DNA from: Leptospirales bacterium | Lineage (GTDB): Bacteria > Spirochaetota > Leptospiria > Leptospirales > Leptospiraceae | Direction: 5' to 3' | Assembly: GCA_013297885.1 (NCBI GenBank) | Contig: JAAFIR010000021.1 | Location: 1 to 64,000 of the forward strand | Length of the DNA stretch: 64,000 nucleotides | Part shown: positions 14,596-59,561 of the stretch, piece after piece | How positions within the stretch are numbered: position 1 is the first letter of the stretch | Layout of the letters: every line of letters begins with the position of its first letter | The notes under the pieces: model-generated | What the model was told of the DNA's origin: nothing | The model's database searches: none | What the model saw: only the letters and a program-made list of their open reading frames with translations | Program-made: the position numbers and the translations under genes

Positions 14596-14638
14596 TATTC
14601 ATAAAGCTAAACCCAGTGTTGTTAAAGGTGGGCTAAAA

Positions 14639-14765
14639 GCGATAGTGATTGAAACGGTGTCAAAAAATTTCTTCTAATTTTTTGTTCAAATTTAATTAAA
14701 TGAATTTGAGAAATTTTTTGACAAGAGTTGAAAGCACGGTCTTGGTCTGTGACCAAGAATCGCCC
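14639..14765 (-). repeat. Dispersed palindromic repeat, copy 3
   Basis: On the minus strand this reads GGGCG, a 7-bp stem (14741-14747 with 14751-14757), a GTGCTTTC centre, a perfect 13-bp stem (14658-14670 with 14711-14723) and the end TTTCAATCACTATCGC. It fills much of the 309-bp gap between the divergent EAL and ATP-grasp genes. The rest of that gap (14766-14904) is AT-rich leader sequence with no other structure I can name. Confidence 0.8.
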
Positions 14766-19812: not shown

Positions 19813-19967
19813 GGGCGAGTCCTTTCATTTGAATTTTTATATTTAAAAATTTGATTTATTTACAAATGAAAGGTCAGGCTCTTAGCTACTTCTTTCATAA
19901 AAAATATTTTGGTTCAAGTTTCAATATTCAGCCAAGTCTATGAAAGAAACGCTTCGATCCTTCTCGC
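19813..19967 (+). repeat. Dispersed palindromic repeat, copy 4 (complete)
   Basis: GGGCG at 19813 starts the element. Stem 1 is a perfect 11-bp pair (19821-19831 with 19863-19873). The centre is AGGCTCTTAGCT. Stem 2 is a perfect 10-bp pair (19890-19899 with 19939-19948). The end is CTTCGATCCTTCTCGC. It occupies the gap between the divergent methyltransferase gene and the operon at 20105. The rest of this 383-bp gap (19968-20104) is plain AT-rich leader. Confidence 0.85.
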
Positions 19968-20104
19968 ATGAATTTGAGCTGTAGAATCAAAATTTTTTTA
20001 AATTCTGATTCAATTCTGGAATCGATTTTGAAAATTATCTTAGCACTTGAAATCTCTTGACGTAGAGGGTTTGTTTAAAATTATTGATTGGTTAGGTAGG
20101 TTTT

Positions 20105-29439: not shown

Positions 29440-29655
29440 AGTCAACATAAATTTACATTTTTTATTAAAATAAATAAAAAATAATTTTGATTCAATTAAA
29501 TTTAACTATTTTTATTTTATTAAGAAAAAAAAATATATTTTTAATTTAATTTTTATATATCTATTCTATAAAAAAAATTATTTTATAAAAATCATTTGAA
29601 ACCAACTATTTTATTCTTTAGGTTTTTAGAAAAACAAAAGATTCTTCAACACAAA

Positions 29656-29811
29656 GCGAAAAAGGATTGAAATGGAAATCCTTTTGCTTGATTAAATAAA
29701 ATTCTTAAAAAAAGTTTATTTGCAAAAGATTGGAATGGAAAGCCTGGTTTTTTTTCACTTTAACAAAACTAATGAATTGTTAACTAAATCTTAAGTGAAA
29801 AAAAATTCGCC
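29656..29811 (-). repeat. Dispersed palindromic repeat, copy 6 (complete)
   Basis: On the minus strand this reads GGCG, a perfect 12-bp stem (29749-29760 with 29793-29804), the centre CCAGGCTTTCC, a second weaker hairpin, and the end TTTCAATCCTTTTTCGC. It sits in a long intergenic gap, away from coding sequence. Confidence 0.8.
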
Positions 29812-30098
29812 ATTCAATACTCTAAAATGGGAAATTCATAATTTATTTTTTTCTAATAAATCAAAACTGCTTGAGTTGCTTTTAATCAATAACTAAGATA
29901 TCAGTTTTTAAAATCTTTTTTATTATAATCAATTAATTCAACAAAAATTGAATGTTGAGCTTTTTGTTTTTTCTACTTGAATGAGATGAAGTATATTTTT
30001 AAAATATTTAAGTAAATTTTTTAATTTAGAGTGATTTATATTCTAAAATAAATTCATTATATTACTGAAAAATGAATTAAAATTCTTTTAGATTTAAT

Positions 30099-47956: not shown

Positions 47957-50284
47957 TTAAGTTCTTCTAAAAACAGCAATTTTTTGCCAAATTGGTAATT
48001 TTTCTTTTAACTCAATTAAGTTAATTGGTTTAAGAATCAAGTCTGTAAATCCATTTTTTAGTATCTTTTCTTTTGAAGTATCAACTAAATCTGCAGTAAA
48101 AGCTACAATAACAGGTTTTCTATTGATCATTCTATCAGAAAGAATTTTTTCAGTTACTTTATACCCATCTATATTTGGCATATGTAAATCCATCAAAATT
48201 AAATCATATACTTTAAGCTTTAATAAATCTAAGGCGATATAACCATTTTCAGCTAAATTAATTTTATAACCTAATTTTTTAAAAACTCCTTTAGCAACTT
48301 CTAAATTGATTTGGTTATCATCAACAACCAAAATATTCATTGGAAATTCTATCGCAAAATCTGAGTTTAATTCAATATTCCTTGCTTTTTCTAAAATCTC
48401 TATGGAGATTTTCATTTGTAATTGAACAGTAATTTTTGTTCCAAAATTTAACTTACTTTCAAGAGTGATGTTTCCATTCATCAATTCTATTAGTCTTTTA
48501 GTGATATTTAAACCAAGTCCAGAACCACCAAATTGTCTAGTAATGCTTGTATCAACTTGTGAAAATGGCTGAAACAAAGTAGCTATTTTATCTTCAGGAA
48601 TTCCAATTCCACTATCTTCAATAATAATTTTAATAAACTGAAAATCATGAGCAAGAGCAGTTTGTTGAAGTTTTAATTTGACAGAGCCCTTTTTAGTAAA
48701 TTTAATAGCATTACCTACTAAATTAAATAAAATTTGTTTAAGCCTTGTTTCATCAAAATAAACAATTGGATTTATATTTTCATCAAATTCTAAATCTAAT
48801 TCTATGAATTTTGCTTTAGCTTTGGGTTTTAATAATTCTACTACTTCATCAAAAATTTTTTTTAAATCAATTGTGATAGTTTCGAATTCCATTTTACCTG
48901 AATCAATTTTGGAAATATCTAAAACATCGTTGATAATTCCAAGTAAAGAATTTGCTGAACTTCCAATTATTTCAGAATATTTTTTTTGTTCTTGGTTCAA
49001 TTCTGTTGTGAGAAGAAGATTTGACATACCAACAATTCCATTCATTGGTGTTCTAATTTCATGACTCATTGTTGCGATAAAACTACTTTTTGCTTTATTG
49101 ATTTCTTCTTGTTCCAAATAATCTTTTGTTAAATTTTTTATAGTTTCAATTAAACTAAGAGAAGAAAAAACTAAAAATAAAGTTGAAGTAAAATTTACGA
49201 TTATCAAAGTAAATAAATTTGTTTCAATAATTCCTTTAACTCTTAACAAAAAAATTAATATTCCAAAAATTGTAAAAAACAGACTCACTGAAAAATAAAT
49301 ATATTTCATTTCGTATTTGAAAGAGATGTAAAGAGAAAGTACAAAGCCATAAACAAGAAGAAAAGGAGCGAAGATTTGAGCAAGAATCACTAGTTCTTGG
49401 TAATAAGTTTTTTCAAAAAAAGAGTAACTTCCTATAACTAAAAGAAAAATAGAAATGTATTTAATAAAGTGGAAATTGAATTTAGAATATTTTTTAAATT
49501 TCAAATATCGGTTGAAATAAATTGCTAAAAATCCATAAGAAAAAAAACCAGATAATTGATTTAAAGCTAGATTTAGTTCAGGATATTCAGGCCAGATAAA
49601 TTGGAATCCAATTCCAGTTTGAACAACTTGAAATAAACAAAATAAAAAAATTACTATTGTTAATATCAAAAAATTTAATTCTTTTAATGAAAAAAAATAA
49701 AATAAATTGTATAAAATGAATAATAATGAAATTCCAAATGAAGCAAAAAAAAGAGAATATTCTAAATAATCATTTTCATGAAATTTTTCTCTCTCATACA
49801 AACATATTGGAAGATTCATTGTTGTTTTAGTTCTGACTTTGAAAAAAATTTGAACTTTTTCATTTTTGTTTATCATTATTGGAAAAACTAATTTACGATT
49901 CATAATTTTTCTTTCAGAAAAATTTTTATAAATTCCAAGGTTTTCAGTTTCAATTTTTGTATTTTCTCGAATTAAATAAAAATCGATTCTTTCAATTAAA
50001 GGGAATTGAAATTCTAAAAACCAACCATTAAATTCTGTATTATTTTCAATATTAGCTTTAAACCAAAAAGAATTTTTTTGTAATCCAAAATTGATTTTTT
50101 TTCCACTATTTTTTTTCCATAACTCAGGACTAATTTTTTGAATAGAAGATATGTCTTTTTGATTAGTTTCATCTTCAATAAAATATATATGCGAATTTAT
50201 TTCATGATTTTCAAGTTTGTTTAAAATAAAAAAATCATTTGCACTTAAATTAAAACTGATAAATAAAAAAAATAACCTTAGCAT
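47957..50284 (-). CDS. 7TMR-DISM hybrid histidine kinase (copy A)
   Basis: This is a 775-residue hybrid kinase from the ATG at 50284 ([19 protein letters not shown] seven bases upstream). Domains: signal peptide, 7TMR-DISMED2 sensor (about 30-160), seven TM helices (about 170-370), HisKA with H408 in [11 protein letters not shown], HATPase with N-box [17 protein letters not shown] and GSGLGL, and a receiver with D699 in LILMDLHMP. Phosphate would pass from H408 to D699. Its output is not clear, since no HPt or DNA-binding domain follows. It is about as long as copy B, to which it is closely similar. Confidence 0.93.
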
Positions 50285-50471
50285 AAATTCCCGATTTAAA
50301 TATTTACTAATTTTAACAAATACTGTCAATTGGAATTAATCTAATAAAACTAAATCTTTTAGGCAAATAGTATTTATTAAAGTAAAAAAAGAAACAAATT
50401 TTAATTTTGTATTTCTTAATCCTGCAATAAAATCTTTAAGTTAAAATTGATTTCACTTACTATTAATTTTT

Positions 50472-52799
50472 TTAAATATTTTTGTTTGCTTTTTTATGCC
50501 AAATTGGTAATTTTTCTTTTAGCTCATTTAAATTTATAGGTTTCAAAATTAAATCTTCAAAACCTACTTTTAATAAATTATCTTTTGAAGCATCAACTAA
50601 ATCAGCAGTAAAAGCGATTATAACTGGCTTTTTTTTGAGAATTGGATTTCTCATAATTTTTTCTGTAGCTTCATACCCATCCATTTCAGGCATATGTAAA
50701 TCCATTAAAATTAAATCATAAACTTTAAGTTTTAAAAGTTCTAGAACGATTAAACCAGTATCTGCAGTATGAATTTGAAATCCGAGTTTATGAAATATTC
50801 CTTTTGCAACTTCTAAATTAATTTGGTTATCATCAACTACCAAAATGCTCATAGGGAACTCTTTTGCAAAATCTGAATTTAGCATTAAGACTTTTTCACT
50901 GTCAATTTTTTCTTTTGAAATTTTCATTTGCAAAAGAATAGTAATCTTTGTCCCAAAATTTAATTCACTACTGAGTTCAATACTTCCTTTCATTAATTTA
51001 ATAATTTTTTTTGTAATAGCTAAACCAAGTCCTGAACCACCAAAATTTCTAGTTATACTTGAATCAACTTGTGAAAAAGGTTGGAACAAACTGTCTATTT
51101 TATCTTCAGGAATTCCAATACCAGTATCTTCAATTAAAATTTTTATATATTGAAAATCATTTATTTGGTCTAATAATTCTATTTTTAATTTTACAAAACC
51201 TTTTTTTGTAAATTTGATAGAATTTCCAACTAGATTAAATAAAATTTGTTTGAGTCTTGTTTCATCAAAATAAACACTTGGATTTATTTTTTCATCAAAC
51301 TCTAATTTTAAATCTAAAAATTTTTGATAAGTTCTGGGTTTTAATAATTCAATTACTTCAAGAAAAATTTTTTTTAAATCAATAGTTCTTGATTCAAATT
51401 CCATTTTACCAGAATCAATTTTAGAAATATCTAAAACATCATTGATAATTCCTAATAATGAATTTGCAGAACTTCCAATTATTTCTGAATACTTTTTTTG
51501 TTCAGGATTTAATTCTGTTGTTAACAGTAAATTTGACATTCCAATAATACCATTCATTGGAGTTCTTATTTCATGACTCATCATCGCAATAAAACTACTT
51601 TTTGATTTATTGACTTCTTCTTGTTCGGAATTTTGTTTTTCTAAAGTTTTAATAGTTTCAATTAAACTAAGTGAAGAAAAAATTAAAAATAAAATTGAGG
51701 CAAAATTTACAAGAGTCAGTGTATAAAGGCTTGATTCAATGATCCCTTTTGTTCTAAGTAAAAAAATAATAAGTCCAATCATTGTAAAAAAAAGACTAGC
51801 TGAGAAATAAATATATTTAATTTCAAATTTGAATGAAACATAAATTGAAACTGTTAATAAATAAGTTAAGAAACTTGCCGCAATAATTTGTGCTCCAAAA
51901 GCTAATTCTTGGTAGAATATTTTATCAAAAAAAGAATAAAATCCAATAATTAAAAGAATGTGAATTATAAACTTAATAATTCGAAAATTTAAAATTGAAT
52001 AGCTTTTAATATTCAAATATTGATTCACATACAAACCTAAAAATCCATAAGAATAAAAAATTGAAAATAGATTCAGGCTTAGATTCATTTCTGGGTGATC
52101 CATCCAGATAAACTGAAAACCAATACCTGTTTGAATAATTTGAAATAAAATAAAGAAAAAAACGACTAAAACTAAAATTAGAAAACTCAATCTTTTTAAT
52201 AAGATAAAATAAAATAAATTATAAAAAATAAATAAAAATGCTACACTAAATAAAGAAAAAAGGAGTGAATATTCTAAATAATCATTTTCATGAAAGAATT
52301 CCTTTTCAACTAAATGAATAGGAATATTCATAATCGTTTTAGTTTTAACTTTAAAAAAGATTTGAACTTTTTCGTTTTGGTGAAGATGGAATAAATAAAT
52401 CAATTTTCTATTTTTAACTTTTCTTTCTGAAAATTTTTTAAAAGTTCCCATACTTTCAGTTTCAATTTTAGAATTTTCTCGAATCAAATAAATATCGATT
52501 CTTTCTAATAAAGGAAACTGAAATTCCAAAAGCCAATCTTTAAATTCTGTATAATTTTGAATTTCAGTTTTAAACCAAAAAGAATTTTTTTGTAATCCAA
52601 AATTTATTTTTTTTCCATTATTTTTAATCCACAGTTCTTGGTCTATTTTTTGCATTTCAAGAATAGTTTTTTCATTTGTTGAATCTTCTAAATAATAGAT
52701 ATATGAATTGATTTCAGAATTTTCTAGTTTGTTAAGATAAAATAAATCACTTCCCTGAATTGAAAAACTAACTAATAAAAAAAATAATATCTGAAGCAT
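50472..52799 (-). CDS. 7TMR-DISM hybrid histidine kinase (copy B)
   Basis: This 775-residue paralogue lies 187 bp upstream of copy A on the same strand, with identical domain order: signal peptide ([16 protein letters not shown]), DISMED2 sensor, seven TM helices, HisKA with H409 in [11 protein letters not shown], HATPase ([23 protein letters not shown]) and receiver with D700 in [13 protein letters not shown]. Kinase and receiver cores are nearly the same as copy A, while membrane helices differ more. Tandem duplication is the likely origin, with the sensors possibly diverging in ligand. Confidence 0.93.
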
Positions 52800-54199: not shown

Positions 54200-54697
54200 A
54201 TGAAATTTGATGAAATTTTTACTAAACAAAAAAATTTTTTTTTGGTTTGCTTTATTTTATTTTATTGTAATTCAAATCAAAAAAAAACAGAAGTTCTTGA
54301 AAATCCGATTGAGAAAATTGCAATCAGCTTTTCAAAAAAAATTGATAAAGAAAATGAAAGACTAATTGTTTTAAACTTCACTGATTCAAATGGAAAAAGC
54401 CAAGATGTTGGAAATATTTTTTCAGAAAAATTAACTACTGAACTGGTTAAAAAAGGAAAATTTACTATTTTAGATAGATTTACTTACCAAAAAAAATTAA
54501 AAGAGATCGATTTAAATTTAAGTCCCACTTCAGATTTAGGAGAACTTAGAAAAGTGTCAGATGTTTTAAATTTAAAATATGTAGTCACAGGAATTTTAAC
54601 TCGTTACCAATCTGGTTATGGAATAAACGCTAGATTAATTGATCCAAAAACTGGATTAATTATTTCAGCTGAAGAGGCTTTTTATGCGTCTGAATAA
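54200..54697 (+). CDS. FlgO/CsgG-like lipoprotein
   Basis: This 165-residue protein has a lipoprotein start that reaches Cys through an A7T9 tract (54228-54243), ending FILFYCNSNQ. The mature domain matches the FlgO type: IVLNFTDSNGKSQDVGNIFSEKLTTELVKKGKFTILDR, LGELRKVSDVLNLKYVVTGILTRYQSGYGINARLID. Such proteins are periplasmic or outer-membrane components. A second ATG at 54209 opens a different reading frame giving MKFLLNKKIFF, so a one-base change in the tract would yield a more typical signal peptide. It precedes the Bat-like TPR gene, whose original start overlaps its end by 14 bp. Confidence 0.75.
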   Translation: MKFDEIFTKQKNFFLVCFILFYCNSNQKKTEVLENPIEKIAISFSKKIDKENERLIVLNFTDSNGKSQDVGNIFSEKLTTELVKKGKFTILDRFTYQKKLKEIDLNLSPTSDLGELRKVSDVLNLKYVVTGILTRYQSGYGINARLIDPKTGLIISAEEAFYASE

Positions 54698-55727
54698 GTT
54701 TTTAATTTGCAAACTAAATTATTTTAAGTTATTTTTATGTGCGAGTTTTTGCAAAGCAAAAATCAGGCTCTCAGCTCTTGTCAAAAATTTGCTTTTGCAA
54801 ATTTTTGACACCGCCTCGATCCTTCTCGCTAGTATATCAAAAATCAAATTCTTAACTATAAGTTTTTACTCTAAACAGTTTTCTGATTACTCTGTAATCA
54901 GTCCTCTGCAAGCGTTAGTGATTGAAGAGATGCGTCAGCAGTCGTTTAGTAGCGTGGGATTTCAATCCCACGAAGATAAACGACCGAAGCAGCGTAATCG
55001 CTGCGAAGTCTCGGAAAGCACGACTTTCTTTTGCAAAAAGAAAGGAACGCCCATATTTTTATGCTTATTATTTTCGTTTAACACTGCTTATGCGATTGAT
55101 TTAGATCCAGATGGAAAACCAATCAAAGAAGGTATCGAAAGATATTCATATAACGACTTTCAAGGTGCATTAGAAAATTTTTCTGAAGCTGAAAAAAATT
55201 TTAAAGAGGATGCAAGGATTAATTTTAACAAAGGAACAGCTTATTATAAATTAAACGATTTTGAAAATGCAAAAAAATCATTTGAAAAATCTATATCAAC
55301 TGAAGATAAAAATTTAAAAGCAAATTCATTTTACAATTTAGGTAACACATACTCAAAGTTAAACGATAAAAAAAATGCAATTAAATCTTATATGAATGCA
55401 CTAAATGAAAATCCTAATTTAAGTGAAGCTAGAAAAAACATTGAATTACTAAATAAAGAAGAAGACAAAGACAAAAAAAAAGATAAACAAGACGATAAAG
55501 ACCAAGAACAGAATAAAGACAAAAACCAAAATGAAAAAAGTAAAGACCAAAAGAAAAAACAAAATAAAAATGGAGAAGACGACAAGTCAGATAAAAATCA
55601 AACTCCTGAAAATAAAGGTCTAACAAAAGAAGAAGCTGAAAAAATTTTAGAACAATTAGGTAAAGATAAAATCAACAGAAAAAAAACAGACCAGGGAAGA
55701 AATGAAAGTAGTGAAATTTTTTGGTAG
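54684..55727 (+). CDS. Bat-like TPR protein with in-frame repeat insertion in its signal peptide
   Basis: The native N-terminus appears to start at ATG 54684 (MRLNKFLICKLNYFKLFLC). Then 108 codons of two repeat elements interrupt it before FLCLLFSFNTAYA completes a signal peptide with an AYA cleavage site. The mature part has two or three TPR units (about 165-250: ERYSYNDFQGALENFSEAEKN, AYYKLNDFENAKKSFEKS, GNTYSKLNDKKNAIKSYMNAL), then a highly charged K/D/E/Q-rich region and a helix (TKEEAEKILEQLG). It resembles BatC/BatE-type proteins because BatD follows, overlapping by 26 bp. BatA and BatB genes are absent here. Whether the long N-terminus still exports the protein is unclear; later starts (ATG 54930) also fall in the repeat. 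Confidence 0.72.
   Translation: MRLNKFLICKLNYFKLFLCASFCKAKIRLSALVKNLLLQIFDTASILLASISKIKFLTISFYSKQFSDYSVISPLQALVIEEMRQQSFSSVGFQSHEDKRPKQRNRCEVSESTTFFCKKKGTPIFLCLLFSFNTAYAIDLDPDGKPIKEGIERYSYNDFQGALENFSEAEKNFKEDARINFNKGTAYYKLNDFENAKKSFEKSISTEDKNLKANSFYNLGNTYSKLNDKKNAIKSYMNALNENPNLSEARKNIELLNKEEDKDKKKDKQDDKDQEQNKDKNQNEKSKDQKKKQNKNGEDDKSDKNQTPENKGLTKEEAEKILEQLGKDKINRKKTDQGRNESSEIFW
54741..54829 (+). repeat. Dispersed palindromic repeat, copy 7 (in TPR gene)
   Basis: This copy begins GCGAG (a worn GGGCG) directly after TATTTTTATG. Stem 1 is TTTTTGC/GCAAAAA (54746-54752 with 54756-54762). The centre is AGGCTCTCAGCT. Stem 2 is a perfect 13-bp pair (54780-54792 with 54797-54809). The end is CTCGATCCTTCTCGC. 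It lies inside the open reading frame of the Bat-like TPR gene and has no stop in that frame. Confidence 0.85.
54912..55052 (-). repeat. Dispersed palindromic repeat, copy 8 (in TPR gene)
   Basis: The minus strand reads GGGCG, stem 1 (CTTTC/GAAAG type, 55024-55044), GTGCTTTCC centre, a three-part stem 2 (54941-54948 with 54977-54984, 54953-54961 with 54964-54972, 54989-54994 with 54999-55004) and the end CTTCAATCACTAACGC. It faces copy 7 tail to tail across an 82-bp spacer that holds an 8-bp palindromic hairpin (54883-54890 with 54894-54901). Its GGGCG end abuts a second TATTTTTATG at 55054-55063. Confidence 0.85.
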
Positions 55728-59180: not shown

Positions 59181-59364
59181 GGCGAATTTTTTTTCACCAA
59201 ACATAGTAATAATCACAACTATGTTTGGTGAAAAAAAACGGGCTAAAACCTCCCTGCTCCTTCGGAGCACATAGCCAAGCTTTGCTTCAATCTTTTGCAA
59301 AAATACTTCATTAAAAAATCAATTTAATTCCAGCAAAAGTATTTCCGCTACAATCCCTTTTCGC
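59181..59364 (+). repeat. Dispersed palindromic repeat, copy 9 (complete)
   Basis: GGCG at 59181 leads into a perfect 20-bp stem (59187-59206 with 59219-59238) with loop TAATAATCACAA, then CGGGCT at 59239-59244. The second half contains GCTCCTTCGGAGC (7-base hairpin) and weaker pairing between CAAAAATACTT and AAGTATTT. The end is GCTACAATCCCTTTTCGC. It lies 6 bp after the htpG stop and may end that transcript. The rest of this 387-bp gap, 59365-59561, is AT-rich without visible features. Confidence 0.88.
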
Positions 59365-59561
59365 TTGAATAGAAAAATTTTATTTTTATAAAAATAATTT
59401 ATCTGATAAATAGTTTTTTTTTAGAATCCAATTTTTCAAATTTTAATGATTTCTGATTTTAACTAAAAATTATAAATTAATTCGAATGATTTATAAAAAT
59501 GACTTCAAATAATTTATAGAAATAGAATTTATGTTTTATTAAGTTTTTTAGTGAGTTTGTT

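Follow-up and report, generated by a model that had tools for sequence, protein, structure and literature searches.

The question raised by this locus is what interrupts the signal peptide of a batC-like gene, and how the gene has remained open across the interruption. The window is the whole 64,000-nucleotide stretch analysed, from contig JAAFIR010000021.1 of a Leptospirales bacterium; it represents contig C13 of a 4.6-Mb genome assembled in 72 contigs. The genes present, among them BatC/BatD/HtpG, a FlgO-like gene and DUF1564, together with the match to the Leptospira BatC model of NCBIfam, mark the genome as that of a Leptospira-like spirochaete. In-frame MITE insertion is already known as a type of event; the element that inserted here is a new variant, in which two Flavo-1-like three-way-junction units form a mobile pair. 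Very probably a non-autonomous, MITE-like pair of units, 316 bp long, inserted in the batC signal-peptide codons with an 8-bp duplication, left the reading frame intact and was retained by selection. The features of the locus, in window coordinates, are as follows.

54684..55727, + strand: batC-like gene (TPR protein) with the insert; 347 codons, 239 without the insert (ORF list)
54684..54740, + strand: MRLNKFLICKLNYFKLFLC, the left part of the interrupted signal peptide (translation; position fits the orthologue starts)
54730..54737, + strand: left copy of the target-site duplication TATTTTTA (sequence, flank test; the 10-bp identity reaches 54739)
54738..54830, + strand: unit 1, from the head TGTGCGAG to the end of the outer stem, head facing the left duplication (R1 match, structural scan)
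54831..54911, no strand: spacer of 81 bp between both tails (structural scan)
54912..55053, − strand: unit 2, with head GGGCGTT and a long inner arm, head facing the right duplication (structural scan)
55054..55061, + strand: right copy of the target-site duplication TATTTTTA (sequence, flank test; the 10-bp identity reaches 55063)
55065..55094, + strand: LLFSFNTAYA, the right part of the interrupted signal peptide, followed by IDLD of the presumed mature protein (translation, orthologue alignment)

The Insertion in the batC Signal Peptide

The initial annotation placed the insertion in the signal peptide of a Bat-like TPR gene, and this gene is batC. Its product contains Pfam TPR domains and scores 185.2 bits against NCBIfam NF047507 (TPR_BatC_Lepto; cut-off 175), the match covering residues 124–347 only, and the genes downstream encode BatD and then HtpG. 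The comparison with orthologues that had been proposed as a check bears the insertion out: batC orthologues at seven loci in six genomes (G001, two loci of G002, and G003 of the same genus; G005, G006 and G007 of the same family) lack the 108 codons, which are therefore an insertion. All seven have a hydrophobic, signal-peptide-like start just ahead of a conserved (I/F)D(L/V)DP, this junction being more divergent in G006. The related BatC proteins are ~43–58% identical, the comparison being with other genomes of the genus and family rather than with a strain of the same species; against NF047507 the rejoined protein scores 184.7 bits, and orthologues 175.7 and 184.5 bits. In the alignment the extra residues appear as a large gap within the signal peptide, and although the aligner shifts a few residues, the join between MRLNKFLICKLNYFKLFLC and LLFSFNTAYA is settled because the DNA repeats fix its position. 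Removal of the insert rejoins these two halves into one signal peptide, just as first described.

The direct repeat on which that description was built, TATTTTTATG, is present at 54730–54739 and 55054–55063, with an offset of 324 bp or 108 codons. Its 10 bp exceed the duplication itself because the additional TG match consists of the element's own first two bases; judged from the sequence, the cleanest boundaries are best drawn as an 8-bp duplication, TATTTTTA, around a 316-bp element (54738–55053) that starts with TG and ends with CA. This is a target-site duplication, as had been supposed, and it stands well above chance, as none of 2000 cross-pairings of the flanks of the tested pairs equals the 8-bp match; from base composition, an 8-bp match has a probability of 6e-5 and a 10-bp match one of 6e-6. 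Two repeats do lie tail to tail between the duplications. The accompanying statement that their GGGCG-type ends touch the direct repeats needs correction, since the left unit starts with TGTGCGAG, and between CGCCC and the right repeat stands a single A.

The Open Frame and the Fate of BatC

The frame seen in the translation is open through the insert, with no in-frame stop across its 324 bp, and composition-shuffled inserts are open in one given frame in 0.1% of cases (p ~0.001). Such a frame argues that ribosomes pass through the insert, as frame would be of no consequence in a dead gene or in one with its start beyond the insert. The insertion could instead have killed or truncated batC, the frame being open by chance and BatC, if made, starting inside the insert, where an in-frame ATG (54930) and GTG (54954) stand upstream of the surviving hydrophobic core. 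This we consider unlikely: an open frame of that length would be unneeded in a dead gene or in one that starts near the right end of the insert, the remainder of BatC is intact and scores above the curated cut-off, and both internal start codons appear by eye to lack a well-spaced ribosome site, whereas the ATG at 54684 has AAGAGG six bases upstream.

According to the preferred reading, that of a MITE-like insertion retained by selection, two three-way-junction units arranged tail to tail entered batC within its signal-peptide codons, and 8 bp of the target were duplicated. With the element and the duplication together amounting to a multiple of three and the frame open, batC would have stayed translatable, and selection on batC would then have kept this copy of the insert. 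The pair would be moved by an enzyme that acts in trans and recognises its head ends. Translation would proceed from the ATG at 54684 through the insert, and export would depend either on the hydrophobic core IFLCLLFSFNTA, which survives downstream of the insert, or on a new cleavage site within the added segment. The repeat codons might also furnish this core with a new n-region (KKKGTP), as first suggested.

Structure and Copy Number of the Repeat Units

Alignment of 30 units, with the variable arm P2 trimmed, yields one 32-pair structure; the unit folds as a three-way junction composed of an outer stem, P1 (GCGAA/TTCGC), and the arms P2 and P3. Paired cells make up 97.1% of this structure, a fit favoured by its derivation from the same 30 sequences, and independently of that 142 cells have changed on both sides in a compensated manner. 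Two-sided changes occur in 20 pairs, a level reached by none of 500 shuffles, and when the partners are slid the paired cells drop to 44–58%.

The covariance model R1, built from the 30 aligned units, matches unit 1 at 54739–54835 (104.2 bits, E 1.8e-26) and does not find unit 2, to which the structural scan assigns a score of 20.7 at 54912–55052. In the 836 kb surrounding matches, this scanner finds 187 units at scores of at least 17 and 6 in the reversed sequence; the unit catalogue comprises these 836 kb and the genome searches, the latter as the matches listed. R1 has at least 150 matches in this genome, all those listed having E ≤ 6.5e-9, while it has 10, 13 and 20 in genomes of the same genus, 0–4 in the same family and none in the sister family. 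Searched with BLAST against its own genome, the insert gives 45 matches, and the nearest other copy of unit 2 (C44:45661–45732) is 79% identical to it. Extrapolation from the seven units in the window suggests ~500 units genome-wide. Outside the batC insert, units of the window are located at 161–265, 14633–14765, 19813–19973, 29650–29812 and 59269–59374. The window also contains a 165-bp tandem repeat in four in-register copies of 65–72% identity (354–1120) and, at 47980–52696, adjacent sensor-kinase genes 71–86% identical over long stretches at a spacing of 2512 bp, a tandem duplication.

RNA helices usually pass through G-U pairs in the course of evolution, which a DNA hairpin need not do. 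In the units G-U accounts for 8 of 927 standard pairs (0.9%), or 2 of 759 (0.3%) without P2, compared with 9 of 88 (~10%) in a small control of four tRNAs from the same genome folded by energy. The scarcity of G-U relative to the tRNAs suggests that the pairing is maintained in DNA.

Paired Units and Their Mobility

Direct repeats next to the element were looked for in 14 tail-to-tail pairs of ~250–570 bp whose heads point outward. The flanks agree at 8/8 positions in the batC pair, at 7/7 in the pairs at C4:96903 and C51:54500, and at 7/8 in that at C29:19628; cross-paired flanks give p 0.0055 for each 7/7 case, the C51 pair having entered the test after its repeat was noticed by eye, and p 0.06 for C29:19628. 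The search for duplications at other repeats, advised in the initial annotation, was thus rewarded in part: adjacent duplications of 7–8 bp occur above chance in three or four of the 14 pairs, in the other ten no duplication is clear, and at 162 single units duplications are no commoner than in cross-pairings. The elements are MITE-like in being short and multi-copy, in containing no complete gene and in having inverted ends, with target-site duplication in these 3–4 of 14 pairs. No complete long element was found in the relatives searched.

A near-identical sequence of 123–135 bp stands directly beside units, always in the same orientation, at 13 or more contig ends where the arms of the units all differ (the starts of C53, C37, C65, C70, C7, C17 and C16, and the ends of C22, C61, C68, C47, C50 and C39; L167–L179). 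As this near-identical sequence adjoins units with differing arms, a longer, recently copied element probably abuts the unit tails, repeated elements being collapsed at contig ends in this assembly. Two further contig ends, C51:2–145 and C20:30242–30385 (L165 and L164; G000), break within the same tyrosine-recombinase gene, and C51 runs from this gene into a unit, tail towards the gene.

Relation to Flavo-1

Flavo-1 originated as a computational prediction (PMC2864571). Its Rfam model, RF01705, has 75 matches in this genome, most of them above the cut-off; one at window positions 29655–29753 (45.6 bits, cut-off 42) overlaps the R1 match at 29650–29812, and two R1 units score below the cut-off (L051 with 38.5 bits, L043 with 30.4 bits). 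Within 54500–55300 neither unit 1 nor unit 2 matches RF01705 at E ≤ 5, for which reason they are called Flavo-1-like, and the insert gives only unrelated sub-threshold matches to Rfam at relaxed thresholds. The likeness lies in the core GATTGAAGCGG-hairpin-GCGGAAAGC, a further hairpin and, when copies are extended, a GCG...CGC(CC) outer stem, whereas the 76-position model of Rfam, labelled an sRNA, spans the inner arm alone. A scan with the core pattern finds it in many Bacteroidota and in termite-gut, Treponema and other spirochaetes, where extension reveals the same outer stem and a second hairpin; some matches, in Bacillus and elsewhere, differ in appearance and may have arisen by chance or convergence.

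Strong covariation and the filing of Flavo-1 as an sRNA would suit units that function as RNAs, either sRNAs or cis elements, their genomic spread being secondary. We regard this as improbable in the light of the scarcity of G-U pairs described above, the position of the units between genes of all orientations and the movement of the pair in batC with a target duplication. In addition, Flavo-1 matches in F. psychrophilum lie sense or antisense to transcribed regions, many of them outside transcribed leader regions (PMC9723704).

Location of the Units and Comparison with Other Repeats

When ~180 units are placed against ORFs, nearly all are intergenic, and the batC copy alone lies convincingly in a gene. 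Four long in-gene scanner matches (C70:44053, C51:31834, C60:62734 and C61:38911) were judged false because they span 200–440 bp, most at scores also reached in the reversed-sequence control. A role as terminators was rejected, as units sit between genes of every orientation; convergent gene pairs are mildly over-represented at them (38/148 vs 100/605). The stem-loop shape also brought to mind attC sites of integrons, an idea abandoned because the units are dispersed and in both orientations and the attC core is absent by eye.

The Rickettsia palindromic elements (RPEs), almost half of whose reported copies lie in frame in genes (PMC10969869), resemble the batC insert as short palindromic repeats in frame within a gene, and the open, in-frame insertion would fit a family adapted to life in coding sequence and supplying peptide, the habit proposed initially. 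Such a habit is very unlikely here and did not survive the comparison: in contrast to the RPEs, one unit in ~180 is convincingly in a gene, none of the 78 frames of the 13 other pairs is open, and at most 18% of single units are open in any one frame. Most simply, insertions in genes would be removed unless they preserve the frame.

A mis-join of two contigs through the dispersed repeat can be dismissed as extremely improbable, for although the genome is a draft and many contigs end at units, the best other copies of the insert are only 82–87% identical, which makes joining at an identical repeat unlikely, and the flanks rejoin into a single orthologous signal peptide with duplication and frame kept.

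ERIC, RU and other bacterial MITEs are likewise intergenic, multi-copy hairpin DNAs with occasional in-frame insertions, some of them in genes for exported proteins (PMC2759123); compared by form, the present units differ in being paired three-way junctions whose sequence diverges while pairing stays. Paired inverted hairpin units tied to a multi-copy protein gene recall the REP/BIME elements and their RAYTs, but the linked protein here is DUF1564 and not a Y1 transposase. A single Y1_Tnp gene was found in the genome (C42:66004–66300), ~0.65 kb from a unit (C42:65270–65355), a lone case that carries no weight as evidence.

DUF1564 as a Candidate Partner

In a 1.75-kb stretch of C11, two units arranged tail to tail enclose a DUF1564 gene. 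Among 15 DUF1564 genes chosen for their family score, irrespective of how near a unit lies, 11 have a unit 187–532 bp downstream, with its tail always towards the gene and never reversed; the chance of a unit near such a gene is ~3% per gene if the extrapolated ~500 units are assumed. In relatives 2 of 11 sampled genes are arranged likewise (G001, G002), the scanner having been tuned on the studied genome. DUF1564 is present in 12–49 copies in several genomes of the same spirochaete family (e.g., L305:1014–1574 on C11, L143, L343–L351). To our knowledge it has no known function, and a literature search gave no paper naming both DUF1564 and Leptospira.

In the AlphaFold2 model, whose confidence is high only for the core, DUF1564 has two strand-helix-helix motifs. 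Among PDB chains, the best alignments are with small chains from F-plasmid relaxosome entries, which we take to be TraY (Z 8.4, rmsd 2.7–3.1 over 93–95 residues; a Z near 8 is not proof), and AvtR and VirC2 appear lower in the list. Foldseek with the model gave no match at E 0.001, a PDB sequence search with the alignment none either, and no catalytic domain was recognised. From its modelled fold DUF1564 is read as a tandem ribbon-helix-helix protein, which would predict that it binds DNA rather than that it cuts strands. The motif AGTTATGCA (AATAGTTATGCA-like) is repeated 6–7 times, on either strand, around the gene of a DUF1564 variant (L117:800–2450, L305:420–1900), and these copies are possible binding sites. 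Tentatively, Flavo-1 may be viewed not as an RNA family but as the structure that forms the ends of mobile DNA, with three-way-junction hairpins in pairs that are moved or managed together with DUF1564, the evolution of the units being ruled by shape and not by sequence; we hold this to be plausible, if somewhat short of an even chance.

Implications

Taken alone, the batC case is another example of in-frame MITE insertion, which is known. The novelty lies in having caught a Flavo-1-like pair after its move into a gene that relatives carry uninterrupted. The insert offers a natural test of the tolerance of a signal peptide to 108 extra residues, and DUF1564, an orphan multi-copy family, gains a testable role. 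The finding also argues for re-reading an Rfam 'sRNA' widespread in Bacteroidota and spirochaetes as mobile DNA.
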